Source: Oscillospiraceae bacterium (GTDB taxonomy: Bacteria > Bacillota > Clostridia > Oscillospirales > Oscillospiraceae). From it: 64,000 nucleotides of DNA. The position numbers and the translations under genes were made by a program. Positions within the stretch are counted from its first letter, which is position 1, and each line of letters starts with the position of its first letter. This document shows positions 25,950-45,444 of the stretch, piece after piece. A model generated the notes under the pieces. The model saw only the letters and a list, made by a program, of their open reading frames with translations. It was not told the origin of the DNA and did not search any database. The stretch spans positions 1 to 64,000 of the forward strand of contig WRAB01000011.1 in NCBI GenBank assembly GCA_009780435.1. The letters run 5' to 3'.

Positions 25950-27257
25950 ATGTTTAAGCGGTTGAGCAAACAAGAAAAAGCTTGGGTGTTGTACGATTTG
26001 GCGGAATCACCGTATACCATAACGGTGATGGCGACGATTATGGGCATGTATTTCTTGGCATCTGCCGAAGCGGCCATTGGGGATATTGTTGTCGCCAATG
26101 CCTATTGGAGTTTCGGGACGGCGGCGGCCATCGTATTTATCGGGTTATTGGCACCGATTATCGGAACGCTTACGGGGTACATAGGGAAGAAAAAATTAGT
26201 GTTTAACCTGTTTGTCGGGCTGGGTGTTTTGGCCACGGCAGGGATTGCGTTTGTGCCGGAGCACATGTGGTTTGGCTTGCTGTTTATGTATATTTTATCA
26301 CTCATCGGATATTCAGGCGCCAACAAGGTGTATAACGCATTTTTGGTGGATGTCTCTCCCAACGAGCGAATGAATCGTGTTTCAACTTTTGCATTTGGCG
26401 TGGGGTATCTTGGCTGTGTTCCGCCCTTTCTCGTCAGCATTGCACCGATTCTTTTGATACAGCTGGATATCATCTCCATGTCCATGGTGACGGCATATCG
26501 CATTGCTTTTTTGATTACCGCCGTGTGGTGGATTGTGCTTACGATTCCCATGTTTCGGCACGTCAACCAGAAATACGGGGCGCCAATGGAGTCCCAGTAT
26601 GTACGCAAAAGCTTCGTAAGCGTATGGCTCACATTCAGGGAAATCTGTAAACATAAACCGGTTTTGCTGTTTCTCCTTGCATTTTTCCTTTACAGCGACG
26701 GCTTGAACTCCATTGTCAGTTTGGCGACGGCCTTTGGCGTAACGATTGGAATCGGGCAGGTTGACCTCTTACTTGTGCTTTTGGTGATGCAGCTTGTGGC
26801 GGGTCCGTGTGCCATTATATACGGACGCATGGCGGATAAATTTGGCACAAAAAAGACGATTTATTTTGGTATCGGGACGTATGTCGTGGTTTGTCTCATT
26901 GCGCTTTTGATGAACCCCGCACGGGATGTTCGCTTTTTAACAGGTCTGTTCTGGGGACTTGCCATGTTGATCGGCACGGCACAAGGCGGTATTCAGGCAT
27001 TGAGCCGTGCTTACTTTAGCAAAGTTGTTCCGAAAGAAAAATCAAATGAATTTTTCGGCTTTTACAATGTCTTTGGGCGCCTCGCCTCTATCATTGGAAC
27101 CACCTTATTTGGGGTGATCTCCCTGTGGACGGGACAACCGCACTTTGGCATTGCAGGCATTGCGGTATTGTTCATATTAGCGGCGATTATTTTCAAATTT
27201 GTACCGGACGATAAAGAAATTTCTTGGGAAGACAAACAGTCCAGCATTTCAGTTTAG
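25950..27257 (+). CDS. UMF1-family MFS transporter, tandem copy A
   Basis: A 435-residue membrane transporter with about twelve membrane segments. The N-terminus KAWVLYDLAESPYTITV and the central loop SYGRMAD-like IIYGRMADKFGTKK fit the UMF1 (Vps22/Atg22-like) group of the major facilitator superfamily, whose bacterial substrates are mostly unknown. It is a close tandem paralogue of the next gene: within the first 30 residues only positions 4 and 27 differ. It ends with a short extra tail QSSISV. ATG 25950 follows AAAAAAGGCGGAGTGGG. Confidence 0.85.
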   Translation: MFKRLSKQEKAWVLYDLAESPYTITVMATIMGMYFLASAEAAIGDIVVANAYWSFGTAAAIVFIGLLAPIIGTLTGYIGKKKLVFNLFVGLGVLATAGIAFVPEHMWFGLLFMYILSLIGYSGANKVYNAFLVDVSPNERMNRVSTFAFGVGYLGCVPPFLVSIAPILLIQLDIISMSMVTAYRIAFLITAVWWIVLTIPMFRHVNQKYGAPMESQYVRKSFVSVWLTFREICKHKPVLLFLLAFFLYSDGLNSIVSLATAFGVTIGIGQVDLLLVLLVMQLVAGPCAIIYGRMADKFGTKKTIYFGIGTYVVVCLIALLMNPARDVRFLTGLFWGLAMLIGTAQGGIQALSRAYFSKVVPKEKSNEFFGFYNVFGRLASIIGTTLFGVISLWTGQPHFGIAGIAVLFILAAIIFKFVPDDKEISWEDKQSSISV

Positions 27258-27316: not shown

Positions 27317-28603
27317 ATGTTTAAGTGGTTGAGCAAACAAGAAAAGGCTTGGGTATTGTACGATCTGGCGGAATCGCCGTACACCATAACGGTGTTGGCG
27401 ACGATCATGGGCATGTATTTCTTAACATCAGCAGAGGCCGCAGTCGGGGATATTGCTGCAATGTCTTATTGGTCGTTTGGAACGGCGGCGGCTACACTGT
27501 CTATCGGGTTATTGGCGCCGATTATCGGAACGCTTACGGGGTACATCGGGAAGAAAAAACTGGTATTTAATCTGTTTGTCGGGCTGGGCATTTTGGCTAC
27601 GGCAGGGATTGCGTTTGTGCCGGAACACATGTGGCTTGCCCTGCTCCTGATGTATATTTTATCATTCATAGGGTATTCAGGTGCCAACAAGGTGTACAAC
27701 GCATTTTTGGTGGACGTCTCTCCCAACGAGCGAATGAATCGTGTCTCAACCTTTGGCTTTGGGGTGGGCTATCTCGGTTGTGTTCCGCCCTTTCTTGTCA
27801 GTATTGCGCCGATTCTTCTCATACAGCTGGGTCTCATTTCTATGCCCATGGTGACGGCGTATCGTATTGCCTTTTTGATTACTGCCGCATGGTGGATTGC
27901 GTTTACGATTCCCATGTTTCGGCACGTCAACCAAAAATACGGGTCGCCAATGGAGCCCCAGTATGTGCGCAAAAGCTTTGTGAGCGTATGGCTGACGTTC
28001 AAAGAAATCTGCAAACATAAATCGGTTCTGCTGTTTCTCCTGGCATTTTTCCTCTACAGTGACGGGCTGGGCTCCATTATCAGCCTGGCAACAGCCTATG
28101 GTATGACCATTGGGATTGGACAGGTTGATCTCTTGCTGGTGCTTTTGGTGACACAACTTGTGGCGGGCCCATGTGCCATTGCATACGGACGATTGGCGGA
28201 TAGATTTGGCACAAAAACCATGATTTATTTTGCCATTGGGACATATATTGTGGTTTGCCTCATTGCGCTTTTGATGAATCCCGCACGGGATATTGGCTTT
28301 TTAACGGGCCTCTTTTGGGCGCTTGCCATGTTGGTCGGCACTGCACAGGGCGGCCTGCAGGCATTGAGCCGTGCTTATTTTGGCAAGATTGTTCCGAAAG
28401 AAAAATCAAATGAATTTTTCGGATTCTATAATATTTTTGGACGCCTCGCCATGGTGATTGGGACTACTTTATTTGGGCTTATTTTGCGATGGACGGAACA
28501 AGCACACCTTGGAATTGCAGGCATTGGTATATTGTTTGTTTTAGCGGCGATTATTTTCAAATTTGTGCCGGATGACAAAGAGATTTCTTGGGCTGATAAA
28601 TAG
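27317..28603 (+). CDS. UMF1-family MFS transporter, tandem copy B
   Basis: A 428-residue paralogue of the preceding transporter, aligned with it along the whole length and ending GTNLK-free at DDKEISWADK. Differences are spread through the membrane segments (for example SAEAAVGDIAAMSYW against SAEAAIGDIVVANAYW), so the duplication is not brand new. AGGAGAGGGAGAGCCGG precedes ATG 27317, and the 59-base gap between copies carries no visible terminator, so they are probably co-transcribed. Function is not known beyond transport. Confidence 0.85.
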   Translation: MFKWLSKQEKAWVLYDLAESPYTITVLATIMGMYFLTSAEAAVGDIAAMSYWSFGTAAATLSIGLLAPIIGTLTGYIGKKKLVFNLFVGLGILATAGIAFVPEHMWLALLLMYILSFIGYSGANKVYNAFLVDVSPNERMNRVSTFGFGVGYLGCVPPFLVSIAPILLIQLGLISMPMVTAYRIAFLITAAWWIAFTIPMFRHVNQKYGSPMEPQYVRKSFVSVWLTFKEICKHKSVLLFLLAFFLYSDGLGSIISLATAYGMTIGIGQVDLLLVLLVTQLVAGPCAIAYGRLADRFGTKTMIYFAIGTYIVVCLIALLMNPARDIGFLTGLFWALAMLVGTAQGGLQALSRAYFGKIVPKEKSNEFFGFYNIFGRLAMVIGTTLFGLILRWTEQAHLGIAGIGILFVLAAIIFKFVPDDKEISWADK

Positions 28604-29594: not shown

Positions 29595-30713
29595 TCAAGA
29601 GAGTATCTCACCCCGCAGAAACACCGCCCGGATGGACAAGTCCTCATTTAACAACACCAAATCCGCATATTTCCCCGGTGCGATACTGCCCCGCTGATGG
29701 AAGATGCCCAGGGCCTTTGCCGGGTTGACGCTGGCGCACTTGACGGCGGTGGCCAGGGGGATTCCCATCTCGGTCACAGCGGTGCGCAGGCAGTCCATGA
29801 GATTCACCACGGAGCCTGCGATGGAGTCGCCCTCTACGAGGCGGGCGCATCTGCCCCGCACCTCTACGGCCAGGCCGCCCAGATCGTAGACCCCGTCTGC
29901 CATGCCGGTGGCCGACATGTTGTCGCTGATGAAGATGATCCGGTCGTCGCCGAACATCCGCAGGGCTGCACGGACTGCGCTGGGGTGGACGTGGACACCG
30001 TCGCAGATCAGCTCCGCACGACAGTCCAACGCATCCATGGCGGCGCCGATGACGCCGGGATCCCGGTGGTGGAGAGGCGGTGTGGCGTTGAAGAGATGGG
30101 TCACCTGTCGTGCGCCGTGGGCGAATGCCGCTTGCGCCAAAGTATAATTCGCCTCCGTATGGGCCACGGAGCACACGATCTCGTCGCCGAGGGCATCAAT
30201 GAGGCAGATTGCACCGTCCATCTCCGGGGCGACGGCCAGGAGCTTTACCATCCCCCCCGCCTGGGCCTGTAGGCGGCGCACCAGTTCCACGTCGGGCGGT
30301 TGGATATAGGCGGGGTTTTGCGCACCGCACTTCTTTGGAGAGAGAAACGGCCCCTCTAAATAGAGCCCGGCAAAGGCTGCGCCCTTTAGATCGGCGTGGG
30401 TGGCGATTTGCCTGCAGGCTGCCGCCAACTGATTCTCCGGAAGAGTTAGGAGCGTGGGACAAATTGCGGTGATCCCGTTTTCCGCCAGATAGTGTGCCAT
30501 ATCCGAGAGTCCCTGGGCGTCCGTGTCAGAGAAATCGTGGTCCACACAGCCGTGGATGTGGAGGTCAATCAGGCCGGGGATGGCGTAACATCCGGTGGCG
30601 TCAATTATCTCGCCGCCCGGGGCGGTATCGGCGAAATACTGCCCGGAGATGGCGATATCGCCGGATGCAAATCCGCCGTTTTCTTGGAAGACCTTTGCGT
30701 GTTTGATAAGCAT
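29595..30713 (-). CDS. nagA: N-acetylglucosamine-6-phosphate deacetylase
   Basis: Removes acetate from GlcNAc-6-P to give glucosamine-6-P. The 372-residue amidohydrolase has the metal motif IDLHIHGCVDHDF, the strand FAGLYLEGPFLSPKKCGAQ, CSVAHTEANYTLAQ, VTHLFNATPPLHHR and FISDNMSATGMADG, with the catalytic Asp in SDN. The family is usually about 380 residues. GGGG lies 10 bases before ATG 30713. It is the last gene of the GlcNAc PTS operon; a 118-base repeat separates it from the CBM9-like gene. NagB, which uses its product, is at the other end of the locus. Confidence 0.93.
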   Translation of the reverse strand: MLIKHAKVFQENGGFASGDIAISGQYFADTAPGGEIIDATGCYAIPGLIDLHIHGCVDHDFSDTDAQGLSDMAHYLAENGITAICPTLLTLPENQLAAACRQIATHADLKGAAFAGLYLEGPFLSPKKCGAQNPAYIQPPDVELVRRLQAQAGGMVKLLAVAPEMDGAICLIDALGDEIVCSVAHTEANYTLAQAAFAHGARQVTHLFNATPPLHHRDPGVIGAAMDALDCRAELICDGVHVHPSAVRAALRMFGDDRIIFISDNMSATGMADGVYDLGGLAVEVRGRCARLVEGDSIAGSVVNLMDCLRTAVTEMGIPLATAVKCASVNPAKALGIFHQRGSIAPGKYADLVLLNEDLSIRAVFLRGEILS

Positions 30714-30873: not shown

Positions 30874-31524
30874 CTAATCTATCGTATTTTCGCCGGGGGA
30901 GACGATCTCCGCCCTGGCGAAGTGCGCCGGTAAGTGAAAATTGGGTTTTTCCACCGGGATGGGGTGATAGGCTCCAAAGTGCAGGATAGCGGGGTCCTCT
31001 GCGATCTTGTAGAAGTTGCAGAAGAACGTGTCCCCCGCTTTGAAGTTGGGCACTCCAAGCCGCCCCAGCAGAGAGTCGGGGATCAAGAGCTCCGCCGTCC
31101 AGCGATCCGGCTCAATAGCGGCCTTCACACCCGTCATGGCGTATTCTGCGTCGGTGATGAATTGGCGGCCCTGTCTGCCGTGGCCGTATTTGGCATACAT
31201 GGCGCCGTTGGCGTTGATCTCGAAATTCAAATACAAACAATCGTTAGACGGGGGTGCGGTCTGTCTCAAATTGGGATCGGGGAAGGCGAAGAACGCCTCC
31301 ATGGCGCTGTCCTTGCAGACCATGTCCCGGTGGTTGTGAAACGCCCGCTTGGGGTCTTGCTCTATGCAGGTCATGCGGAGAAATAGTCCTTGTCCGTCGA
31401 GATAGGCCATTTGGCCGAAGGTCTCCGGCTCTCGCAGGGACTCCCATAAATAGTGGTTGACCCGGAAAATGGGACAGCCATCCAGCTCCGCAGGGGCGTT
31501 GATGATGTGGATTGGATAGATCAT
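30874..31524 (-). CDS. CBM9-like carbohydrate-binding domain protein
   Basis: A 216-residue stand-alone protein resembling family 9 carbohydrate-binding domains as found in cytoplasmic or unattached Firmicutes proteins. Stretches such as DCLYLNFEINANGAMYAKYG, RWTAELLIPDSLLGRLG and FFCNFYKIAED are typical. There is no signal peptide, so it is predicted to be intracellular, which is unusual for a carbohydrate-binding module. The frame opens at GTG 31530, but AGGGGG then directly abuts it; ATG 31524 has correct spacing. It sits between the PTS EIICB gene and nagA, suggesting a role tied to amino-sugar uptake. Role unknown. Confidence 0.7.
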   Translation of the reverse strand: MIYPIHIINAPAELDGCPIFRVNHYLWESLREPETFGQMAYLDGQGLFLRMTCIEQDPKRAFHNHRDMVCKDSAMEAFFAFPDPNLRQTAPPSNDCLYLNFEINANGAMYAKYGHGRQGRQFITDAEYAMTGVKAAIEPDRWTAELLIPDSLLGRLGVPNFKAGDTFFCNFYKIAEDPAILHFGAYHPIPVEKPNFHLPAHFARAEIVSPGENTID

Positions 31525-31547
31525 AGGCACCCCCTAGATATGAAATA

Positions 31548-31575
31548 GGGGGCGGATGCTGCCTCATCCGCCCCC
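31548..31575 (-). terminator. Hairpin after the EIICB gene
   Basis: GGGGGCGGATG and CATCCGCCCCC pair perfectly. On the minus strand TATTTCAT follows, so it may be a partial terminator or a stabilising hairpin before the CBM9-like gene. Confidence 0.6.
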
Positions 31576-31613
31576 TGTTGTTTTATCTGGTATCTATTGT
31601 GCGGATGATGCTA

Positions 31614-33080
31614 TTATAGCATCTTTTGGATCTCGTCTGCAACAAATTGTACCTTGGTGCCGACGATTACCTGGACAGAGGTCTTGCTGGGACGAATCAC
31701 ACCGGCGACGCCAGCGGATTTGATCTTCTTCTCGTCCACTTGCAGATAGTCTTTGACCTCAACACGCAGACGGGTGGAGCAGTAGTCCACGGAAGTCACG
31801 TTGTCCTTGCCGCCGAGGCCCTCTAGGATCGTGGCGGCGACGGCAGCGTAGTCATCGCTGGCGAGAACGACGGATTTTTCCGCTTCCAAATCTTCTTCAT
31901 CTTCCCGGCCCGGAGTCTTGAGGTTGAACTTTTTGATGAGGAAGCTGAACAAGAAGAAATACAGGAAGAAATAGAAGATGCCAAAGGGAATTAGCCAAAA
32001 TTGACCGATGGCGAAAGGCACCCTTGTGCTCAAGACAAAGTCAATGAGCCCGGCGCTGAAGGTGAAGCCTGCAAACCACTGGAATGTAGCGACAATAAAC
32101 ATGGATATGGCTGTCAGGACGGCGTGTACTAAGTACAAGAAAGGTGCTACGAACATGAAAGAGAACTCAACGGGCTCGGTCACGCCTGTGACGAAAGCGG
32201 TGAGCGCTGCTGCCGACATGAGACCGTAGACGATTTTCTTGTTCTTATCTTTGGCGTTTCTGTACATGGCCAAACACGCACCGGGCAGACCGAACATCAT
32301 AATCGGGAAGAAACCAGCCATGTACATGCCGGTGGTGCCGAGGACACCGGGGCCACCCAGACCGGCAGGATTCCAGAAGTTGCCCAAATCGTTGATTCCA
32401 ACGAGGTCAAACCAGAACACCGCATTGAGGGCGTGGTGCAGTCCGGTGGGAATGAGCAGACGGTTGAAGAAACCGTAGAGTGCGGCACCAAAAGCGCCCA
32501 AGCCGGCAATCCACTCGCCGAAAGTTACCAGCGCACCGAAAATGACAGGCCAGATGAACATGAGGATGATGCCAAGTCCGCTCATGACTGCTGCCGCTAC
32601 GATGGGTACCATTCTTCTTCCGGAGAAGAACGAGAGTGCTGCGGGCAACTCTTTTTGATAGAGCCGATTGTAGAGGAAAGCGGAAAGGCAACCAACCAGT
32701 ATGCCGACGAAGACATTTTCAACACCAGCGAAAGCGGCACCTTCGATCTCGGTGAGTCCCCGCCCCCAGAGCCACTCTAGGTTTTCGGGATCAAGAATGT
32801 TGGTTACCACCAGCCAGCCAACTAAGCCAGCTAACGCTGCGGCGCCGTTTTTGTCTGTGCTCAGACCAAAGGCGAGACCGATTGCAAACAAAATGGGGAT
32901 ATAATCCAAAATTCCGCCACCGGCAAGAATTAGGAATGTGCCAATCGTGGCGAGGACACCTTCTCCGCCCCAATCTGGGCCAAGTATGGCGTAGCCGATG
33001 CCGATCAAAAGACCACCGGCAGGCAGAGCGGCGACTGGCAGCATGAGCGCTCTACCGAGTCTTTGCAATGATTTCATCAT
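31614..33080 (-). CDS. nagE: PTS N-acetylglucosamine/glucose-type transporter, EIICB
   Basis: Brings the sugar in and phosphorylates it. The 488-residue protein has an EIIC membrane domain (about 1-390) with the substrate-site motif LLIPTGLHHALNAVFWFD and TEPVEFSF, then an EIIB domain (about 405-488) whose phosphocysteine is Cys434 in VDYCSTRL. The glucose/GlcNAc family lengths fit; placement with nagA, nagB and the absence of a fused EIIA point to GlcNAc. Phosphate would come from the separate EIIA (35150-35650). AGGAGGAAATTTCACT precedes ATG 33080. Confidence 0.9.
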   Translation of the reverse strand: MMKSLQRLGRALMLPVAALPAGGLLIGIGYAILGPDWGGEGVLATIGTFLILAGGGILDYIPILFAIGLAFGLSTDKNGAAALAGLVGWLVVTNILDPENLEWLWGRGLTEIEGAAFAGVENVFVGILVGCLSAFLYNRLYQKELPAALSFFSGRRMVPIVAAAVMSGLGIILMFIWPVIFGALVTFGEWIAGLGAFGAALYGFFNRLLIPTGLHHALNAVFWFDLVGINDLGNFWNPAGLGGPGVLGTTGMYMAGFFPIMMFGLPGACLAMYRNAKDKNKKIVYGLMSAAALTAFVTGVTEPVEFSFMFVAPFLYLVHAVLTAISMFIVATFQWFAGFTFSAGLIDFVLSTRVPFAIGQFWLIPFGIFYFFLYFFLFSFLIKKFNLKTPGREDEEDLEAEKSVVLASDDYAAVAATILEGLGGKDNVTSVDYCSTRLRVEVKDYLQVDEKKIKSAGVAGVIRPSKTSVQVIVGTKVQFVADEIQKML

Positions 33081-33164: not shown

Positions 33165-33422
33165 TCACAAGTTTTCTGCCAAAAATGCTTTTAATCCCTC
33201 TGCGGCCAACTCCTCATCCGGGCCGTCGAAGGTCATGGTGAAGGTGTCTCCCGTCTTGAGGGATAGCCCCATTACGCCCATGATCCGCTTGGCGTCCACC
33301 ATCTTGGCGGGGGTGCCGATTTGTACGGCGCTTTGGAATTCGCTGGCCTTTTTGACCAGATGGGCCGCCGGGCGGGCGTGTAGTCCCAGTTCGTCTTTGA
33401 TCGTATGCTGAATCTCTACCAT
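33165..33422 (-). CDS. ptsH: HPr phosphocarrier protein lacking Ser46
   Basis: Carries phosphate from EI to EIIA. The 85-residue protein has His15 in LGLHARPAA, the residue phosphorylated by EI. The regulatory region reads DAKRIMGVMGL, where Firmicutes HPr normally has KSIMGVM: position 46 is Arg rather than Ser. HPr kinase could therefore not phosphorylate it and it should not act as CcpA corepressor in the usual way. The frame opens upstream at 33464, but ATG 33422 gives a standard N-terminus and follows AAGGAGGT by 11 bases. It lies between EI and EIICB genes. Confidence 0.92.
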   Translation of the reverse strand: MVEIQHTIKDELGLHARPAAHLVKKASEFQSAVQIGTPAKMVDAKRIMGVMGLSLKTGDTFTMTFDGPDEELAAEGLKAFLAENL

Positions 33423-33524: not shown

Positions 33525-35141
33525 TCAATCCATATCCCTGATGCGTTTTCTCATCTCCAGCACAGAGGCCGGGGCGACGGACAATTCATCGAACCCCATG
33601 TTGAGCAGTGTGGCGGTCACGGCGGGGTCGGCGGCCAGTTCGCCGCAGATCCCGGCCCAGATACCGTTATCACGGGCGCTGTCGGCGACGATCTGGAGCA
33701 TTGCCAGCACCGCCGGGTGATGGGGGTCGTAGAACCGATCCAATTTATGATTTTGCCGATCAATGGCCAGGGTGTACTGGGTCAGATCGTTGGTGCCTAC
33801 GCTGAAAAAGTCCACTTCTTTTGCCAGGGCGTCTGCGACCATAACGGCCGCCGGGGTCTCGATCATAATGCCCAACGCTACGTCTCGGATCGGAAGCCCC
33901 TCGGCGGTCAGTTCCCGCCGGATGGCCGCCGCCTGTTCCTTGCAGTGGATCACTTCCCACAGGGATGTAATCATGGGGAACATGATGGCGATATTGCCAA
34001 AGGCGGAGGCCCGATAGATGGCCCGGAGTTGTGTGCGGAAAATCTCCGGCCTGTCAATGCAAATGCGAATTCCCCGGAGGCCCAGGGCGGGATTTTCCTC
34101 CTGGTCTAAGTCAAAGTAGTCAACTTTTTTGTCGGCCCCCATGTCCAGGGTGCGGATGATGACCTGTCTGCCGCCCATGGCCTCTGCCACTCGGCGGTAG
34201 ACGGCAAACAATTCCGCCTCGGTGGGGTAATCCGATCTGCCCAGATAGGAGAACTCACTGCGGAACAGGCCGACCCCCTCGGCGTCGTGTTCCAATACGG
34301 ACTGGATATCCTGGGTGCCGCCGATGTTGGCGAACAGGCGCACGGTCTGACCGCTTTTAGTGGCCGTGGGCAGCCCTCGCAACCCGTCCAGGGATTCCTG
34401 CCGGAGTCGGGCCTCTTGCCGCCACTGTGCCATTTTCTCCCGGACGATCTGGTCGGGTTCCAGATAGCAGAGGCCGCCTGTGCCGTCTACGATGATCTCT
34501 CTGCCGTCTATGGCGGGATCCAGGGGGATATCTGTCTGGATGACACAGGGGATCCCCATGGTCTGGGCCAGGATTGCGGTATGGGAATTGGACGACCCCA
34601 GGCGGATGACAAAGGCGGCGATGTGGGCTCGATCCATCTGTAGGGTTTCGCTGGGAGTGAGATCCTCCGCCACCACCACGGTGGGGCCGGTGAAAGCGTG
34701 GGAGTGCCGCCGACCCAGCAGGATATCCGTCAGCCGCTGGGAGAGGTCTGATACATCTGTGGCTCTGGCCCGCATATAGGGGTCATCCAGGGCGGCGAAA
34801 AAGTCGGAGAACTGTTTTCCGGCCTGGGATACGGCATAGGGTGCGGAGACTTGCTCCGTTTGGATCATTTGCTGGACGGCGTCATTGAAGTCGCCGTCTT
34901 CCAGCATCAGGCGCTGGACGTCGATGATCATGGCCTGTTCCTCACCCAGTTCCGCTGCTGTTTTTTCAAATAGCTGTTTCAGTTGTCCGTCGGCTTTGGC
35001 TTTTGCGGCCAGGAACCGTGTCCACTCCTGATCAGGGGTTCCCCCGGGGGTCTGTTGGATTGCCGTATCCGCTTTTTGCAAGAGATAGACCGTGCCGAAC
35101 GCAATACCGGGACAAATGCCTTTTCCTTGATGTGTGGTCAT
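33525..35141 (-). CDS. ptsI: PTS enzyme I
   Basis: Transfers phosphate from phosphoenolpyruvate to HPr, the first step of the PTS. The 538-residue protein has the HPr-binding and phosphohistidine domains in the N-terminal half, with His187 in GSSNSHTAILAQTMGIP as active site, and a C-terminal PEP-binding barrel with FRSEFSYLGR, IRTLDMGADKK, FFSVGTNDLTQYTLA and GICGELA. Slightly shorter than the usual 570. GAGGTGACCC precedes ATG 35141. It lies between crr and ptsH. Confidence 0.93.
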   Translation of the reverse strand: MTTHQGKGICPGIAFGTVYLLQKADTAIQQTPGGTPDQEWTRFLAAKAKADGQLKQLFEKTAAELGEEQAMIIDVQRLMLEDGDFNDAVQQMIQTEQVSAPYAVSQAGKQFSDFFAALDDPYMRARATDVSDLSQRLTDILLGRRHSHAFTGPTVVVAEDLTPSETLQMDRAHIAAFVIRLGSSNSHTAILAQTMGIPCVIQTDIPLDPAIDGREIIVDGTGGLCYLEPDQIVREKMAQWRQEARLRQESLDGLRGLPTATKSGQTVRLFANIGGTQDIQSVLEHDAEGVGLFRSEFSYLGRSDYPTEAELFAVYRRVAEAMGGRQVIIRTLDMGADKKVDYFDLDQEENPALGLRGIRICIDRPEIFRTQLRAIYRASAFGNIAIMFPMITSLWEVIHCKEQAAAIRRELTAEGLPIRDVALGIMIETPAAVMVADALAKEVDFFSVGTNDLTQYTLAIDRQNHKLDRFYDPHHPAVLAMLQIVADSARDNGIWAGICGELAADPAVTATLLNMGFDELSVAPASVLEMRKRIRDMD

Positions 35142-35149
35142 GGGTCACC

Positions 35150-35650
35150 TCACTTTTTTGTAAACGAGATGATTTCGTCGCCTTGGCGCACGGCCTTTCC
35201 GGCGGGGAAAGAAAAATTGTCAAAGTCATCGCTGTTGCAGATGACGATGGGAGTCACAATATCAAATCCTGCTGTGGCGATAGAGATCAGGTCGAACTCC
35301 AGGAGCAAATCCCCCGGCTTGACGGCATCCCCCTCCCGGATGCGGGGGGTGTAGTGGGCGCCTTTGAGCCGGATGGTGTCCAGCCCCACGTGGATGAGTA
35401 TCTCGGCGCCGTCGTCGGAGGTCAGTGTCACGGCATGACCGGTCTCAAACAGTTGGGTCACCGTGCCTTGTACCGGAGACACGACACGCCCCTCCGCCGG
35501 ACGGATGGCGACGCCACGGCCCAGCATCTCTTCCGAGAAGGTGGGGTCGTCTACCTCTGTGATGGGGATTCGCTCCCCGCACATGGGGGCGAGGATGGAA
35601 ATCCGTTCCGATTTGTTTTCCAATGTGCGCTTTCGTCTCCCGAACATCAT
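35150..35650 (-). CDS. crr: PTS glucose-type EIIA
   Basis: Soluble EIIA of the glucose/GlcNAc family, 166 residues. His72 (TGHAVTL) and His87 (GAEILIHVGLDTI) form the active pair, with His87 as predicted phosphorylation site; SPVQGTV and YTPRIREGDAVKPGDLLLEFD are standard family blocks. It would pass phosphate from HPr to Cys434 of the EIICB. ATG 35650 overlaps the antiterminator stop codon by 4 bases (ATGA), so translation is coupled, and AGGGGG lies 6 bases upstream. Confidence 0.92.
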   Translation of the reverse strand: MMFGRRKRTLENKSERISILAPMCGERIPITEVDDPTFSEEMLGRGVAIRPAEGRVVSPVQGTVTQLFETGHAVTLTSDDGAEILIHVGLDTIRLKGAHYTPRIREGDAVKPGDLLLEFDLISIATAGFDIVTPIVICNSDDFDNFSFPAGKAVRQGDEIISFTKK

Positions 35651-36495
35651 TCAGATCCCCCTGTTTTTAATCTCACATGCCGGATGTGGATGGTGAGCCT
35701 GCTGATCTCTTCTTTTGACAGTGTATACTGGTGGGCCTGAACTGTCATGGCCGATACCACTTTGGCGCACTGCATTTCCTCCGGATATTGTGCCGCCAGG
35801 ACTTCAAAAAATCCGTCGTCGCCGTATTCCGGTAGCAGTTCGCCCTGGATGATCCGCTGGGCCAGGTAGCGGAGATGTGTGAAAAACCGCTCACAGTGGT
35901 AGTTGCCCGTGGCCATGACATATCCTGTCTCGTCTGTGACGATGGCGAGGATTTGATCCATCAGTTTTGTGGCCCGGAACGTCTCGCTGATGGAGATATC
36001 GTATTCCGCGTTGAGTATGTGCATGGCGATGGATGCGGCCTCGTCCTCTGGCATGTCGATATCCAGTTTTTGCTGCATCAGCCGAAGGGCGTACACGCCG
36101 ATTTCAAATTCTTTGGGATAGAAGCGACGGACTTCCGGGAGCAGAATATTCTGAAACTCCATCCCCTGCCTGTGCCGGGTGACTGCAAAGCTGATGTGGT
36201 CGGCCAGGGTAAAATATGCGGCCTCATTGAGGCGTTTGCCCAGGTGTTCTTTCGCATAGGTGAGGATCTCATCCGTGAGTTCAATGTACGCCGTGGGCAG
36301 GGAGGCGAACAGATCTTTCAGCCGGTCCATGTTGTTTTGGTTGCTCATGACAAATATTTTGTCGATCTTTTCCGACGGGATTTTCATGCCTGGATTCGCC
36401 TTGTAGCCCAGCCCTTTGCCAATCACAACGACTTCTCTGCCATTATGGTCAAGGGCGCTGACAATATTGTTGTTGATCGGCTTAAACACTTCCAT
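35647..36495 (-). CDS. BglG-family transcriptional antiterminator (LicT-like)
   Basis: Binds an RNA hairpin to prevent termination when its sugar is available. The 282-residue protein has an N-terminal RNA-binding domain (about 1-55, VFKPINNNIVSALDHNGREV), then two PTS regulation domains. Conserved His residues lie in LADHISFAVTRH in PRD1 and FFTHLRYLAQR in PRD2, and would be phosphorylated by HPr and the EII. The frame extends to 36543, but ATG 36495 is the family start and follows GGGGG. Its own leader carries a RAT site and terminator, so it controls itself and the downstream PTS genes. Specificity for GlcNAc is inferred from the operon. Confidence 0.9.
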   Translation of the reverse strand: MEVFKPINNNIVSALDHNGREVVVIGKGLGYKANPGMKIPSEKIDKIFVMSNQNNMDRLKDLFASLPTAYIELTDEILTYAKEHLGKRLNEAAYFTLADHISFAVTRHRQGMEFQNILLPEVRRFYPKEFEIGVYALRLMQQKLDIDMPEDEAASIAMHILNAEYDISISETFRATKLMDQILAIVTDETGYVMATGNYHCERFFTHLRYLAQRIIQGELLPEYGDDGFFEVLAAQYPEEMQCAKVVSAMTVQAHQYTLSKEEISRLTIHIRHVRLKTGGSE

Positions 36496-36510: not shown

Positions 36511-36570
36511 AAAAACGAAAAACCAAACTTCACAACTGCGCAAAGCTACGCATTCATAAAATTTGGTTTT
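36511..36570 (-). terminator. Conditional leader terminator of the GlcNAc PTS operon
   Basis: On the minus strand AAAACCAAA (which includes the 3' end of the RAT site) pairs with TTTGGTTTT, followed by TCGTTTTTT. RAT folding and terminator folding exclude each other. Confidence 0.85.
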
Positions 36571-36593
36571 GCCTGCATTACCAGTTACAGCCC
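36565..36593 (-). promoter_or_regulatory. Ribonucleic antiterminator (RAT) site
   Basis: The 29-base minus-strand sequence begins GGGCTGTAACTGG and ends TAATGCAGGCAAAACC. It closely matches LicT/SacY-type RAT targets, whose core is TTACTG...GCAGGCAAAACC. Its last bases form part of the terminator stem, the classic antitermination arrangement. Confidence 0.9.
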
Positions 36594-36629
36594 AAAGGTA
36601 TTCACTTTTTGTTCACAATTTATATGTAG

Positions 36630-36658
36630 ATTAAAACGCAAAACGAATCTATTGTCAA
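36630..36658 (-). promoter_or_regulatory. Promoter of the antiterminator-PTS operon
   Basis: On the minus strand a perfect TTGACA and TTTAAT are 17 bases apart, 37 bases upstream of the RAT site. Confidence 0.75.
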
Positions 36659-36755: not shown

Positions 36756-37481
36756 TTAAAACTTGGACAGCGCCGCTTCGTCAGCGATGACGATCAGATT
36801 GTTGTGGAGTTGCAGGATGCTGGCGGGGACAGTAGACGTGATGGGGCCTGTGAGGCTGCGGTGGAGGGCTTCGGCCTTCCCTGCGCCGGTCACTAAGAGC
36901 AGAGCCAGCCGGGCGTTTAGGATGGGCCGCATCCCCAGAGTGTAGGCCTGGGTGGGGACGTCTTCCCGGCGCTGGAAAAACCGTTGGTTGTCATCGATTG
37001 TCGCATCGGTCAGATCGACGATATGGGTATCTGCGACGAAGTGGTCACCGGGCTCGTTGAAGGCGATGTGACCGTTGGAGCCGATGCCGAGGACTTGCAG
37101 GTCAATGGGGCCGAGATCAGAGACCAGCTGATCGTACCGGGTACAGGCGTCTCGGGCGTCTAGATTTTTCCCGTCGGGCAGATAGGCGTTCTCCGGGCGG
37201 ATGTCGATGTGGTGGAACAGGTTGTGCCACATGAAATAGTGGTAGCTGGCCTCGTCCTCTGATCCCAGGCCCACGTATTCGTCCAGGTTTACACTCCGGC
37301 ATTGGGCAAAGCTGGCCTCGCCCCGCTCATATGCCGTCACCATATTCTGATAGGTGCCCACAGGGGTGGACCCGGTGGCCAAGCCCAGGACGGAATCGGG
37401 TTTTGCACACACTTGCTCCAGCAGAATCTCTGCGGCCCGTGCGCTCATCTCCTCATAATTTGCAACTGCGATTAGTTTCAT
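36756..37481 (-). CDS. nagB: Glucosamine-6-phosphate deaminase
   Basis: Converts glucosamine-6-P to fructose-6-P and ammonia, completing GlcNAc breakdown. The 241-residue protein has SVLGLATGSTPVGTYQNMV, SVNLDEYVGL with the catalytic Asp, LGIGSNGHIAFNEPG with the catalytic His, and LLVTGAGKAEAL. This is the short Firmicutes form without the allosteric tail of E. coli NagB. GAAAGAGGTGTGAACG precedes ATG 37481. It is the gene upstream of the RAT-controlled operon and has its own upstream region, with an AGTACGGTACT palindrome at 37523-37533 that could be an operator. Confidence 0.93.
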   Translation of the reverse strand: MKLIAVANYEEMSARAAEILLEQVCAKPDSVLGLATGSTPVGTYQNMVTAYERGEASFAQCRSVNLDEYVGLGSEDEASYHYFMWHNLFHHIDIRPENAYLPDGKNLDARDACTRYDQLVSDLGPIDLQVLGIGSNGHIAFNEPGDHFVADTHIVDLTDATIDDNQRFFQRREDVPTQAYTLGMRPILNARLALLLVTGAGKAEALHRSLTGPITSTVPASILQLHNNLIVIADEAALSKF

Positions 37482-40117: not shown

Positions 40118-40918
40118 ATGAATTATTGTATTGCGTATACCGTGCTTTGCAACACAGGGCTGGTTCGGACAAAAAATCAAGACAATTTTTGGTGTATGGG
40201 CGAATTTCTAAAAAGCGAAAATGATGGGGTGGCAGACCCCATTACTGGGACAGCGGACACAAAGCGTATACCGGCCTTTGCCGTTTTTGATGGGATGGGC
40301 GGGGAACAGCAGGGCGAGGTCGCCGCATACATCGCCGCCAACACGTTTGATGTCGGATATAAAGAGAGTCCCAAACGTGACGTCAAGCAATTTCTGTTAG
40401 ATGCCTGTGCCAATATGAACAACGCGATTTGTGTGCACATAAAAGAGCAGCATCTCCGCAGTTCAGGCGCGACTGCTGCGATACTTATGTTTGGCAAACG
40501 GGATATTTATGTCTGCAATATTGGGGACAGCCGAATCTATCAGTTCAGTGATGATACGTTGACGCAAATATCCCACGATCACAGTGAGACCGGCATGATA
40601 GACAGGAAGCCGCCGCTCACACAGCATTTGGGGATCCCCGAGACGGAGTTTGTCATTGCGCCGTATGTGGCAAAGGGATTGTATGAAAAGGGAGATAAAT
40701 ATCTGATTTGCTCCGATGGGTTGACGGATATGGTCTCCGAAGCGGAAATCGCCAAAACAATGACGGAGAACAGCAGTATTGAACAAGGCGCCGAGGTGCT
40801 TTTGCAAAAAGCCCTGGAAGCGGGCGGCCACGACAACATCACATTGATACTGTGCGAAATTCGCAGGCAAGGACTCCAGATATTCAATAAAAATATTGTA
40901 GGGGGCGCGTCAAAATGA
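40118..40918 (+). CDS. PP2C-family Ser/Thr protein phosphatase
   Basis: Removes phosphate from Ser/Thr, presumably reversing the two kinases that follow. The 266-residue protein has the full set of PP2C metal motifs: RTKNQDNF, FAVFDGMGGEQQGEVAA, NIGDSRIYQF, LICSDGLTDMV and AGGHDNITLI. It is similar to Stp/PrpC phosphatases of Firmicutes, usually about 245 residues, with a short insertion after NFWCMGEF. The start overlaps a modest ribosome site GAGCGGGACAAA. It overlaps the first kinase gene by 4 bases. Confidence 0.92.
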   Translation: MNYCIAYTVLCNTGLVRTKNQDNFWCMGEFLKSENDGVADPITGTADTKRIPAFAVFDGMGGEQQGEVAAYIAANTFDVGYKESPKRDVKQFLLDACANMNNAICVHIKEQHLRSSGATAAILMFGKRDIYVCNIGDSRIYQFSDDTLTQISHDHSETGMIDRKPPLTQHLGIPETEFVIAPYVAKGLYEKGDKYLICSDGLTDMVSEAEIAKTMTENSSIEQGAEVLLQKALEAGGHDNITLILCEIRRQGLQIFNKNIVGGASK

Positions 40919-43275
40919 GCATTGAAAAATTAAGTAACATCTGGCCGGATTGGCAGGTGGTTGAACAACTGGGGGAAGGGTCCTTCGGCAAAGTTTACAA
41001 GGTTTTGCGAGAGGAACACGGTGTGACCTCCACCGCGGCCGTAAAAGTCATTTCCATCCCCCAAAATGATGCGGAACTGGCCTCCATACGCGCAGAGGGG
41101 ATGGACGAGACGGGAACCCGCTCCTATTTTGAAGGTATTGTGACAGATTTCGTGGGCGAAATCAAGTTGCTGGAATCGATGAAGGGGACCGCCAACGTCG
41201 TCAGCGTAGAGGACTATAAGGTGCTGGAGAAAACCGACAAGATCGGCTGGGATATCTTCATCCGCATGGAGCTTCTGACCCCGCTCAACGACTATATTGC
41301 CGGTAGAGCGCTGACAGAGGCGGAGGTTATCAAGCTGGGGCAGGATATTTGTTCCGCATTGGAACTATGTGCCCAGCGGGACATTATGCACCGGGATGTC
41401 AAGCCGGAAAATATCTTCGTCTCCTCCTTCGGCGACTTTAAACTCGGAGATTTTGGGATTGCCCGCAAACTGGAAAAAAGCAACGACTCCTTGTCACGCA
41501 AGGGTACGCCGAACTATATGGCGCCGGAAATCGACATGTCTAAGGAGTACGATGCCACGGTGGACATATACTCCCTGGGGCTGGTACTCTACAAATTGCT
41601 CAATAACAATCGGTTGCCGTTTTTGGATCCGAATGCCCAATTGATACAGTATCAAGACCGCAAAGACGCGCTGAATCGCCGTTTTGACGGGGAGCCACTG
41701 CCCGCGCCGATCAATGCGAGTCCCCACTTGGCACAAGTAATTCTGGTCGCCTGTGCCTTTCGGCCCGCAGAGCGGTTCCAATCGCCGACGGCGTTTAAAA
41801 ATGCGCTGGGGGCAGTTCTGGGAGCGGCACCGGCCCCGATTCCTCCAAAGCCTGTTCCTCCACCGGCTCCGCAGAAGCCTGCTGACGCGGCGAGTGATAT
41901 GGACAAAACCATGACGGGACGCCGTCCGCCGGAAGCTAGGCAGCCAGTTGCACAGGAGCCGGATGTGCCTATTGCCTCTTTCGGCAGAGAGAAGAAAAAG
42001 AAGTCCAAAGCGAAGGGCGTCCTAATTGCGCTTCTTGTGCTTATTGTCCTCGGCGGCGCGGCAGTTGGCGCATACATTTTGAATCCGGGCGGCATTTTTG
42101 ATGGTGTACACGATGTTGTCGGCGGCATCATTGGCGACCCGGCGGCGGACGTCATCACCGCCCTGGAAGAGGGGAACCATGCAGAGGCCTTGTCTCTGGC
42201 AGAGGAGGCGGATGGCGACGCGCTACAGAGAAGACTGGAAGAGCGCCTAGATACGCTGGAGGCCGATTTCAGGGCCGAGAATGTAGCGTTTGCCGCGGTG
42301 ACAATGGAACTGGACACCATTGGAAGGATGAACGTATCCGGACTTTCCAGCGCTTTGACCGCGACGCGGAGTTCAATCAACAATCTCAACGCCTCCCGGA
42401 CGGCGTTCAATACGGCGGAGACGTTGTTTGAAAGCGGCGATTATGCCGCGGCCATTACCCAATACAGGCTGGTCATTCAAGACGACCCTAATTTTGAACG
42501 TGCGTTAGCAGGCGTAAATAATGCCACAAGCGAATACCGCTACAGGGTGTTGTCCGATGCGAATGAATATGCGAGCAGACATGATTATGAGAGCACCATT
42601 AGAGTCTTAGACAACGGACTACGGGTAATTGAGAACGACTCGACACTAATGGAAGTGCGCATCCTAAATGAGCAGAGGTTCATAGCTGCTACGATCTCCC
42701 AAGCCGACACGCTTGTCGCTGAGGGTAGACATGACGATGCTATCGCGCTAATCAATGGCGCATTGCAAACGGTTCCTGGTGATGACCAGCTAACGAGCCG
42801 GCGAGATGAAGCGACAGCGGCAAGACCTGTGGGCTTATCGACTGTTGTTGTGGTTGATTCAAGTGCTTACAGCCACAGTGAAGATATTTTTACAGACTCC
42901 TTTGGAAACCATCATCACGAATCATTCCAGTTTACCCCGCGAGCTAACGGGTGGAGAAATCGCTATGAATATAGTGATTCTGGAAATTCTTCATATGCTG
43001 TTTATAATTTGAACGGCAACTTCAGAACTTTTACCGCTGATATTGTTGCTCCTAGCGGTCTCCATTCGGATGTAGAATTTCTGATCGAAATTACCTTTGA
43101 AGACAATCGCACTCCCATAACTTTTGTTGAAGGATATACTGTGCGCACAGGAACGCGTCGCATAGAGGTAGATGTTTCCGATGTTACGACAATGACTATT
43201 ACAGTCAGAGTAAGAGGTGGTTCGTCTACTTTGCAACATAGTATTCGTTTGGTAAATGCTGAATTGGCCAGATAA
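40915..43275 (+). CDS. Membrane Ser/Thr protein kinase 1 with TPR-like outer region
   Basis: A 786-residue receptor kinase. The kinase domain (about 13-300) has GEGSFG, Lys44 (AAVKVI), HRD at 159-161, DFG at 179-181 and YMAPE, so it should be active. A Pro-rich linker leads to a membrane segment at about 367-388. Outside are helical repeats at about 400-620 (FNTAETLFESGDYAAAITQY resembles TPR) and a C-terminal beta-rich domain at about 640-786 of unknown type. GGGGGCGCGTCAAA precedes ATG 40915. There are no PASTA repeats, unlike PrkC. It is paralogous to the next kinase. Confidence 0.9.
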   Translation: MSIEKLSNIWPDWQVVEQLGEGSFGKVYKVLREEHGVTSTAAVKVISIPQNDAELASIRAEGMDETGTRSYFEGIVTDFVGEIKLLESMKGTANVVSVEDYKVLEKTDKIGWDIFIRMELLTPLNDYIAGRALTEAEVIKLGQDICSALELCAQRDIMHRDVKPENIFVSSFGDFKLGDFGIARKLEKSNDSLSRKGTPNYMAPEIDMSKEYDATVDIYSLGLVLYKLLNNNRLPFLDPNAQLIQYQDRKDALNRRFDGEPLPAPINASPHLAQVILVACAFRPAERFQSPTAFKNALGAVLGAAPAPIPPKPVPPPAPQKPADAASDMDKTMTGRRPPEARQPVAQEPDVPIASFGREKKKKSKAKGVLIALLVLIVLGGAAVGAYILNPGGIFDGVHDVVGGIIGDPAADVITALEEGNHAEALSLAEEADGDALQRRLEERLDTLEADFRAENVAFAAVTMELDTIGRMNVSGLSSALTATRSSINNLNASRTAFNTAETLFESGDYAAAITQYRLVIQDDPNFERALAGVNNATSEYRYRVLSDANEYASRHDYESTIRVLDNGLRVIENDSTLMEVRILNEQRFIAATISQADTLVAEGRHDDAIALINGALQTVPGDDQLTSRRDEATAARPVGLSTVVVVDSSAYSHSEDIFTDSFGNHHHESFQFTPRANGWRNRYEYSDSGNSSYAVYNLNGNFRTFTADIVAPSGLHSDVEFLIEITFEDNRTPITFVEGYTVRTGTRRIEVDVSDVTTMTITVRVRGGSSTLQHSIRLVNAELAR

Positions 43276-43317
43276 TCAAGAATAAACAAGAGTAGAAGCA
43301 TTGTAAGGGGGATGGAG

Positions 43318-45444
43318 ATGAGCATTGAGCGACTGGGCGCCATCTGGCCGGAGTGGCAGGTTGTGGAGCAACTGGGCGAAGGGTCTTTCGGCAAAGTCTA
43401 CAAGGTGGTGCGGGAGGACCACGGCGTGACCTCCACCGCCGCCGTAAAAGTCATCTCCATCCCCCAAAACGACGCGGAACTGACCTCTATGCGGGCGGAA
43501 CGACTGGACGAGACGGGGATGCGCTCCTACTTTGGCGGCATTGTCGCAGATTTCGTCAATGAGATCCAGATGATGGAATCTATGAAGGGGAACTCTTATA
43601 TCGTCAGCGTTGAAGATTACAAGGTGTTGGAGAAAACTGATAAAATCGGCTGGGATATCTTCATCCGCATGGAGCTTCTGACCCCCCTCAACGACTATAT
43701 TGCCGACAGGGAACTGACGGAGGCGGAAGTAGTCAAGCTGGGACAGGATATTTGCGCGGCGTTGGAGTTGTGTGACCAGCGGAAAATTATCCACAGAGAC
43801 ATCAAACCGGAGAATATTTTTATATCTGCGCACAAGAACTTCAAGGTGGGTGATTTTGGGGTCGCCCGGGAGCTGGGAAAGACCAGCGGCTCTCTGTCCC
43901 AAAAGGGCACATATAACTACATGGCACCGGAAATCACCACGTCTACGCGATATGATGCCACAGTGGATATATACTCCCTGGGGCTGGTGCTCTACAAACT
44001 GCTCAATAATGATCGGCTGCCGTTTCTGGATCCGAAGGCCCAGTTGATACAGTATCAGGATCGCAAAAATGCCATTGATCGCCGGTTGAGCGGAGAGGCA
44101 CTGCCTGCGCCGATCAATGCGAATCCGCAGTTGGCGCAAGTGATTCTGACCGCCTGTGCGTTTCACCCCGCCGCGCGATTCCAATCGCCGACGGCGTTCA
44201 AAAATGCGCTGGGCGCGGTTCTGGGAGCGGCGCCGATCCCTGGGCCGCCGGATGATATGGACAAAACAACGTCGGTGCGCCGCGCACCCCCCGCACCCCC
44301 CGCGCCGCCGCAACCACCGCCTCCACCATCGCCACCGCCGCCACCTCCACCGTCCGGTGGAGGCAGGAAAGTCGGTGTGATTGCCCTGGTGATCCTGGTG
44401 ATTCTGGCGATTGGCGCTTATGGCATATGGTACAATGATCCCTTCGGCTTCTTTGATTCATCGGAGCACACGGTGGTGTTTTATCTAAATGATGGAACGA
44501 GTACAGTGTTTGGTGCGCCTGTCACTGTAGAAGAGGGGGACACCGTAGCGCTCCCGTTCTATACGCCCCACCGGGCGGGCTATACATTTCTCTACTGGAC
44601 GAGAGACCGCGCCGGCAACTACCGCTATAACTTTGACACACGCGTGACGGAGGATACCTCTCTCTATGCCCAATGGGGCGAAGTCGTCCCTGTATATGAT
44701 GGACCTGCTATAGTAGATGAGACATATGATGAAATGCTTGCACCGGAATATACAGATACGCCACCGGAACTCAGCCACTTCGTGGCGTTTGATATGGGGG
44801 CGATTGATGGAATTATATCGCAGCGGGCGAGTCCTTCGGATGTGGCGGTCTCCATTCTTGATTTAAACACAATGGAGATGCATGTAACCGCAAACGGCAA
44901 TACGCCTTTTGTCGCCAGCGGGTTTTACGCCCCTCTATACAACATTGTTCTCTCGCACAGTAGCGCGCGTCAGACGGCGGATACAATGATGGCGACAATG
45001 GATAATGCCGCCGCAAATGCGCTGATTGAAGGAATAGGCGGATTTGCGCAAGTAAATGGGATACTAAGTAATTTGGGATTTGCAGAGACGCGCTTCGGGC
45101 GCAATTTCGGTGATGTTGAGGCGAGCAGAAGGGGACATGAGAACTATACCACAGCGCGGGAGGCGGCTTGGATACTGGGTGAGTTGTATGAGAACGGCGG
45201 CTATTTGAAGATGAGTTTCGATTTGACGCGAGATGGCGTTATTTTGCCGGGCGGGATTGTCGTCTATGCACATAGGGGAGCGGGGATTGGCGCCGCATAT
45301 AACGTGTTTGCCGTTATTGTCACGCCATCCGTCAACTATGTCGTTGTGGTTTTGACGAGTGGGCTGGGAAGCGACAGTGCCGCGCCTATTGTATCAGAGC
45401 TTTTGGCGAATATCCAACAGCAGATGGAGCAGATACATGGGTAA
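43318..45444 (+). CDS. Membrane Ser/Thr protein kinase 2 with degenerate beta-lactamase-like sensor
   Basis: A 708-residue receptor kinase. The kinase domain is nearly that of kinase 1 (four differences in the first 30 residues), with HRD at 159-161 and DFG at 179-181. A run of prolines precedes a membrane segment at about 352-372. Outside are an InlB/Flg_new-type repeat (about 384-453, RAGYTFLYWTRDRAG) and a class A beta-lactamase-like domain (about 480-708). Compared with the next gene product, that domain keeps the motif Ser but has Tyr for the Lys of SxxK, MDN for SDN and HRG for KTG, so it is probably a non-catalytic ligand sensor. ATG 43318 has AAGGGG 7 bases upstream; ATG 43312 is too close. 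Confidence 0.9.
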   Translation: MSIERLGAIWPEWQVVEQLGEGSFGKVYKVVREDHGVTSTAAVKVISIPQNDAELTSMRAERLDETGMRSYFGGIVADFVNEIQMMESMKGNSYIVSVEDYKVLEKTDKIGWDIFIRMELLTPLNDYIADRELTEAEVVKLGQDICAALELCDQRKIIHRDIKPENIFISAHKNFKVGDFGVARELGKTSGSLSQKGTYNYMAPEITTSTRYDATVDIYSLGLVLYKLLNNDRLPFLDPKAQLIQYQDRKNAIDRRLSGEALPAPINANPQLAQVILTACAFHPAARFQSPTAFKNALGAVLGAAPIPGPPDDMDKTTSVRRAPPAPPAPPQPPPPPSPPPPPPPSGGGRKVGVIALVILVILAIGAYGIWYNDPFGFFDSSEHTVVFYLNDGTSTVFGAPVTVEEGDTVALPFYTPHRAGYTFLYWTRDRAGNYRYNFDTRVTEDTSLYAQWGEVVPVYDGPAIVDETYDEMLAPEYTDTPPELSHFVAFDMGAIDGIISQRASPSDVAVSILDLNTMEMHVTANGNTPFVASGFYAPLYNIVLSHSSARQTADTMMATMDNAAANALIEGIGGFAQVNGILSNLGFAETRFGRNFGDVEASRRGHENYTTAREAAWILGELYENGGYLKMSFDLTRDGVILPGGIVVYAHRGAGIGAAYNVFAVIVTPSVNYVVVVLTSGLGSDSAAPIVSELLANIQQQMEQIHG

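Follow-up and report, generated by a model that had tools for sequence, protein, structure and literature searches.

In Bacillus subtilis, LicT and its ribonucleic antiterminator (RAT) sites at bglPH and bglS serve the beta-glucosides, and ptsGHI is antiterminated by GlcT with glucose as the sugar. The GlcNAc genes of the same species are controlled by the GntR-type NagR (PMC6148471). A GlcNAc antitermination operon has been established experimentally in Enterococcus faecalis: NagY-nagE shows a 16.6-fold induction that is mostly lost without nagY, a Kd of 4.18 nM between NagY and the leader, and no catabolite repression (PMC9981650). GlcNAc antitermination is thus not unprecedented (PMC9981650).

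Here we describe a locus in which a LicT/RAT-type transcriptional antitermination switch very probably controls a GlcNAc phosphotransferase (PTS) operon. It lies on the minus strand of the window, by which we mean the whole 64,000-nucleotide stretch of DNA that was analysed, and runs 5' to 3' as nagB, promoter, RAT, terminator with U-tract, licT, crr, ptsI, ptsH and nagE. Its features are as follows.

36756-37481, minus strand: nagB, glucosamine-6-phosphate deaminase, directly upstream of the switch (TIGR00502, 269.2 bits, cut-off 236.9)
36630-36658, minus strand: promoter TTGACA-17-TTTAAT, assigned from its sequence
36565-36593, minus strand: RAT, 29 nt, assigned as the sole genome match and from fold and pair counts
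36511-36570, minus strand: intrinsic terminator and U-tract, with a 5' arm that overlaps the 3' end of the RAT, assigned from fold, nascent-chain series and conservation
35647-36495, minus strand: licT-like antiterminator of 282 aa, CAT_RBD and two PRDs (Pfam, LicT structures, PRD histidines)
35150-35650, minus strand: crr-like EIIA of the glucose family (PF00358, TIGR00830)
33525-35141, minus strand: ptsI, enzyme I (TIGR01417, 541.9 bits, cut-off 341.7)
33165-33422, minus strand: ptsH, HPr with His15 but Arg for Ser46 (PF00381, alignments; start with GGAGG)
31614-33080, minus strand: nagE, GlcNAc-type EIICB (TIGR01998, 586.7 bits, cut-off 553.2; TIGR02002, 417.8 bits, cut-off 591.8)
31547-31576, minus strand: perfect hairpin of 12 bp, rich in GC, separating nagE from the CBM9 gene, with a tail that is T-poor on this strand
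30874-31530, minus strand: CBM9_2-family protein (PF16011), a neighbour of nagE in two relatives too
29595-30713, minus strand: nagA, GlcNAc-6-phosphate deacetylase (TIGR00221, 301.3 bits, cut-off 225.65)

The switch and its antiterminator

A preliminary description of this DNA had placed a promoter, a 29-base RAT with a named core and a terminator built on the end of the RAT, in that order, before a BglG-type antiterminator gene and a whole PTS operon, and each of these elements was recovered. The -35 box TTGACA (36658-36653) and the -10 box TTTAAT (36635-36630) are separated by 17 nt and agree with consensus at 11 of 12 positions. The RAT (36593-36565) reads GGGCTGTAACTGGTAATGCAGGCAAAACC, with the named core at 36576-36565, and the foot of its hairpin is extended by UUUGG/CCAAA to 36596-36562. 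A terminator hairpin is predicted at about 36570-36520 (-22.8 to -24.6 kcal/mol); it shares the 3' arm of the RAT and leads into a U-tract with slight interruptions. All of this falls within 36511-36658, ahead of the licT ATG at 36495, and the genes behind it are licT-crr-ptsI-ptsH-nagE, with successive gaps of -4, 8, 102 and 84 nt.

The predicted folding energy of the leader is -40.3 kcal/mol, whereas its shuffles average -27.8 +/- 3.0 (z -4.25; 0/200 shuffles as low). When the nascent transcript was folded, the energy prediction gave the RAT hairpin (-7.7 kcal/mol) at most lengths of ~62-98 nt, after which the terminator takes over the RAT 3' arm. By predicted folding, RAT and terminator are therefore mutually exclusive, the overlap that characterizes LicT-type antitermination; the RAT also has the length of ~29 nt, the conserved sequence and the hairpin that mark the BglG/SacY (LicT-type) class. 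Searching the 2.16-Mb genome (96.7% complete) with a RAT pattern at up to 3 mismatches returned a single match, this one, with 0 mismatches; the reversed control pattern had no match in the same genome, and a covariance model built from 14 RATs likewise located this site and no other, even with E allowed to reach 10. The leader had no match in Rfam at the gathering threshold. A simple scan missed the promoter, because its rules require A as the second base of the -10 box, and also the terminator, probably because they are unfit for a long stem with an internal mismatch. A match to the catabolite-responsive element with 2 mismatches (36630-36643) overlaps the -10 box and is unconvincing; at this tolerance of up to 2 mismatches the window holds 31 matches with 21.0 expected (sd 4.8).

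The product of licT has a CAT_RBD and two PRDs by Pfam, the domain set of BglG/SacY (LicT-type) antiterminators. Its solved relatives are the LicT PRD structures 1tlv (E 2e-43) and 1h99, the LicT-like N-terminal part 6twr, 3rio, titled as a PtsGHI operon antiterminator, and 1l1c (LicT). All four PRD histidines are present, at residues 100, 159, 207 and 270. We call the protein LicT-like because its score falls just under the cut-off of the LicT equivalog NF046042 (295.3 vs 300); that of the GlcT equivalog NF047357 is also missed (206.4 vs 320). No other CAT_RBD protein was found in the genome, which accordingly has one regulator and one RAT. Such a pairing of a single regulator with a single target would allow the sugar specificity of GlcNAc antitermination to be tested free of cross-talk from other LicT proteins.

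We propose that transcription would begin ~130 nt ahead of licT and that, unless relieved, RNA polymerase would stop at the terminator. By homology, an active LicT-like protein would bind the RAT hairpin and hold the strand that the terminator needs, giving read-through into licT-crr-ptsI-ptsH-nagE. Following the LicT model, phosphate would pass from NagE/EIIA to PRD1 in the absence of GlcNAc and turn LicT off, and in its presence would go to the sugar and leave LicT active; HPr~P acting on PRD2 would support LicT activity. All four PRD histidines are in place. GlcNAc-6-phosphate would then be deacetylated by NagA and deaminated by NagB. The loop would make its own phosphate carriers, because enzyme I and HPr are encoded in the same operon.

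It could also be that the leader is dead or minor and that expression of the operon depends on read-through from nagB, which lies upstream on the same strand with 260 nt between it and licT, or on internal promoters, such as a weak promoter-like site inside licT (35748-35720). Read-through from nagB would however run into the same RAT and terminator, promoter-like sites in the region occur at chance number (7 found, 5.8 expected), and the promoter scan found no internal promoter before ptsH. Moreover, the RAT-terminator-licT order is kept in 13 of the 31 GlcNAc-type loci described below and the RAT stem carries compensatory changes, so we regard expression independent of the switch as extremely improbable.

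Downstream of nagE, the CBM9_2-family gene and then nagA follow after gaps of 83 and 160 nt. Their place in the nagE transcript is only a candidate one because the GC-rich hairpin intervenes; this hairpin is possibly the end of the operon, perhaps a partial one, and could either terminate the transcript or shield its 3' end. The CBM9_2-family gene repeatedly adjoins nagE (window 30874-31530; L034, 5475-6098; L092), with 68% and 47% identity in the relatives. Elsewhere in the window, judging from the translations, a PP2C-like phosphatase ORF precedes a pair of large Ser/Thr-kinase-like ORFs that resemble each other (40915-43275 and 43312-45444, all within 40118-45444), and two adjacent, very similar transporter-like ORFs (25950-27257 and 27317-28603) look like a tandem duplication.

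The sugar and the RAT loci of relatives

The operon had been described as one for GlcNAc, and the set of GlcNAc genes turned out to be wider than had been noted, with nagA downstream and nagB directly upstream, each above the cut-off of its own model. NagE exceeds the cut-off of the GlcNAc model TIGR01998 by 33 bits and falls below that of the glucose model TIGR02002 by 174 bits, so that the protein models support its assignment as a GlcNAc-specific EIICB. In three relatives (L035, L037 and L043) the EIICB falls slightly short of the GlcNAc cut-off.

To place the locus among relatives, we collected RAT matches at E <= 0.01, present in 43 of 394 genomes of the order, and added loci found earlier; a single-protein search of genome contigs gave one relative, L050, and the genome search the others. 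With the 18 weakest matches (E above 2.2e-5) left out, 75 loci, window included, were classed by the best tblastn match of the window proteins and two reference EIIs: 31 are GlcNAc-type, 23 glucose-type, 14 beta-glucoside-type and 7 other. The GlcNAc-type loci take the form RAT-licT-crr-ptsI-ptsH-nagE in 11 cases (window included), RAT-licT-crr-nagE in 2, RAT-crr-(ptsH)-nagE with nagB and/or nagA in 11, RAT-ptsH-nagB-nagA in 3 (EIICB being matched in part in one of them) and RAT-nagB in 4. Altogether nagB and/or nagA lie downstream of the RAT in 18 of the 31, and these breakdown enzymes of GlcNAc-6-phosphate with RATs of their own are, in our judgement, the best evidence for the sugar. GlcNAc is well supported as the sugar by the score of NagE above the cut-off of the GlcNAc model, by the presence of nagA and nagB on either side of the operon, and by the RATs that lead nagB and/or nagA in these 18 loci.

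This evidence also bears on whether glucose, either by itself or alongside GlcNAc, is what the switch and its EIICB handle, as a GlcT-like or dual-specificity system. The EIICB does belong to the glucose family, its solved relatives are glucose EIICBs, and no other glucose-family EIIC occurs in the genome, the second of its 2 PF02378 matches being of the lactose/cellobiose type. In addition, a Clostridium beijerinckii PTS of this kind is reported to complement both glucose and GlcNAc mutants of Escherichia coli (PMC4706839). However, the failed glucose model, the adjoining nagA and nagB with their RAT-led counterparts in relatives, and the existence of a separate glucose-type RAT group (23/75) all argue against it, and we consider it improbable as a whole; uptake of glucose alone is unlikely, and dual uptake of glucose and GlcNAc is possible.

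The preliminary description had also implied that control of this kind is rare at GlcNAc loci. NagR control in B. subtilis agrees with this (PMC6148471), whereas the NagY-nagE operon (PMC9981650) and the 31 GlcNAc-type loci among 75 speak against it. The earlier reading is thus partly supported, being right on mechanism and sugar and overstated on rarity. Since a LicT-like match is found in only 11 of the 149 nearer genomes (own included), the system is patchy in the window's own family.

The elements of the switch are conserved among the GlcNAc-type loci. A terminator overlapping the RAT, here a hairpin of <= -15 kcal/mol with at least 6 T of 8 and a 5' arm that starts in or just after the RAT 3' part, is present in 31/31 of them (window included) and in 7/155 sequences with the downstream part shuffled. 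A promoter with at least 10/12 consensus positions lies within 100 nt upstream of the RAT in 21/31, compared with 76/1550 shuffles. We also aligned 32 RAT matches (30 distinct) by fitting them to a covariance model, and in this alignment pairing holds in 100% of the cells of the upper helix and in 77% of those of the lower helix. One pair of the upper stem is U-A in 16 and C-G in 14 of the 30 distinct RATs, and another is C-G in 29 and U-A in 1. Cells changed on both sides number 18, a value reached by 0/500 shuffles; pairs with two-sided changes number 4, a value reached by 131/500 shuffles, and this measure does not stand out. An alignment made with MAFFT only has 9 two-sided-change cells, reached by 4/500 shuffles. 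Because the first alignment is model-fitted and the sequences are related, these double changes support rather than prove conservation of the RAT hairpin.

In a tree of 62 LicT-like proteins, the GlcNAc-associated ones require 2 label changes (shuffled mean 19.6) and thus form two groups. The window protein falls in a GlcNAc group of 13 rows with support 99/91, beside L034 and L050, although several long branches make deeper placement unsure.

HPr and enzyme I of the operon

In the genome there are 5 matches to HPr, one of them weak, along with 3 enzymes I and 2 PF02378 EIICs. Of the two enzymes I outside the operon, one is close to a PTS of the lactose/cellobiose type that comes with a chitin-disaccharide deacetylase gene, and the other adjoins an ascorbate-type EIIC; these are further PTS loci of the genome (L051, G000:C17, and L052, G000:C7), each with an enzyme I and an HPr of its own. 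The operon is therefore not the genome's only general pts operon.

With ptsI and ptsH inside the operon, LicT might sense general PTS phosphorylation rather than GlcNAc, the operon then being a general ptsHI unit in which nagE is incidental. Two loci of relatives are in keeping with this: L123 and L124 have a RAT directly before ptsI (in L124 with ptsH between), with no EII among the proteins searched for; these are putatively general PTS enzymes under antitermination. The further enzyme I genes and HPrs elsewhere in the genome argue against such a role here, as do L034 and L050, where ptsI and ptsH are missing from this operon, and we hold general sensing to be very unlikely.

The HPr of the GlcNAc operon (33165-33422) has His15 and an Arg at position 46 in place of the HPr-kinase serine, the residue by which bacteria of this sort ordinarily restrain the uptake of sugars. 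Because of this replacement, it would not be phosphorylated at position 46 by HPr kinase, whose gene is present in the genome. The same pattern recurs in relatives, in counts that are not independent owing to shared descent: all 28 HPrs in RAT operons have His15 and none has Ser46, position 46 being Arg in 19/19 of the GlcNAc-type, in 1/1 of the other type and in 5 of the 8 glucose-type HPrs (the rest Y, H and K, 1 each). Among 31 HPrs outside known RAT operons in 17 genomes, 24 have Ser46, two of these being fragments without the His15 part. The loss of Ser46 is not limited to RAT operons, as the other 7 carry K, Q, K, T, N, N and N.

The gene neighbours were inspected for 14 Ser46 HPrs that resemble the C4 HPr, and uvrC adjoins 13 of them. 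Six of the 14, all from one genus, have Tyr15, and a further separate Ser46 HPr (G015) has Phe15; a separate Ser46 HPr without His15 is thus found in seven other genomes (Tyr15 in 6, Phe15 in 1; L161, L162, L166-L169 and L178). The uvrC-linked HPr of the window's own genome keeps both sites (His15 and Ser46). The Crh/HPr pair of Bacillus shows that the functions of HPr can be divided between paralogues (PMC3526391, PMC9631020). Given these residues, a division of labour between the RAT-operon HPr and the separate Ser46 HPr is possible. We tentatively suggest, with more doubt than confidence, that across the order antiterminated GlcNAc operons carry a phosphorelay-only HPr (His15, Arg46) through which both the GlcNAc switch and GlcNAc transport escape catabolite control by HPr kinase, and that the separate, often uvrC-linked Ser46 HPr, having lost His15 in several genomes, serves there only as a Crh-like co-repressor. 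A Ser46-less HPr within a GlcNAc operon could show whether a private phosphocarrier exempts one sugar from HPr-kinase catabolite control.

The receiving side of this phosphorelay varies as well. In the LicT of four GlcNAc operons (L035, L038, L095 and L133), one or both PRD2 histidines are lost (N/D, N at the second, D/C and L at the first, respectively), and in three relatives a PRD1 histidine is Asp. Given these losses, phosphate control is predicted not to be uniform among relatives. In the four operons the HPr-dependent activation of LicT may be lost or mimicked, and without PRD2 histidines the input from HPr~P would be cut as well. This pattern fits, though it does not show, a trend that frees the GlcNAc operon from general catabolite control.

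Comparison with known systems

The locus shares with LicT/RAT of B. subtilis the RAT sequence, its hairpin and overlap with the terminator, and an antiterminator with CAT_RBD and two PRDs bearing four histidines. It differs in its sugar, GlcNAc, and in that licT belongs to its own target operon, alongside general PTS genes. Like GlcT/ptsGHI, it is an antiterminated operon with a glucose-family EII, ptsH and ptsI, but its antiterminator matches the model of GlcT much less well than that of LicT. The uvrC-linked HPr of relatives, with Ser46 but Tyr15, recalls the Crh/HPr pair; the operon HPr here lacks Ser46, whereas the Bacillus partner HPr of Crh keeps both sites.

NagY-nagE resembles the locus in having a BglG/SacY-family antiterminator, an autoregulated leader and a RAT that overlaps the terminator before a GlcNAc PTS transporter, and it differs in consisting of two genes, with a one-protein EIICBA and a RAT that follows the consensus poorly (foot GCRUGGA) (PMC9981650, PMC12502629). 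In the window the RAT follows the LicT consensus, EIIA and EIICB are separate proteins and the operon includes ptsI and ptsH; the likeness of its LicT-like protein to NagY is one of function. Our search of the open-licence literature turned up no account of GlcNAc operons under LicT control in this group or of an HPr with His15 and without Ser46 in such operons, nor the combination of a GlcNAc antitermination operon with its own enzyme I and a His15/Arg46 HPr. The type of switch is well known, and the operon with its private enzyme I and Ser46-less HPr is a variant of it.
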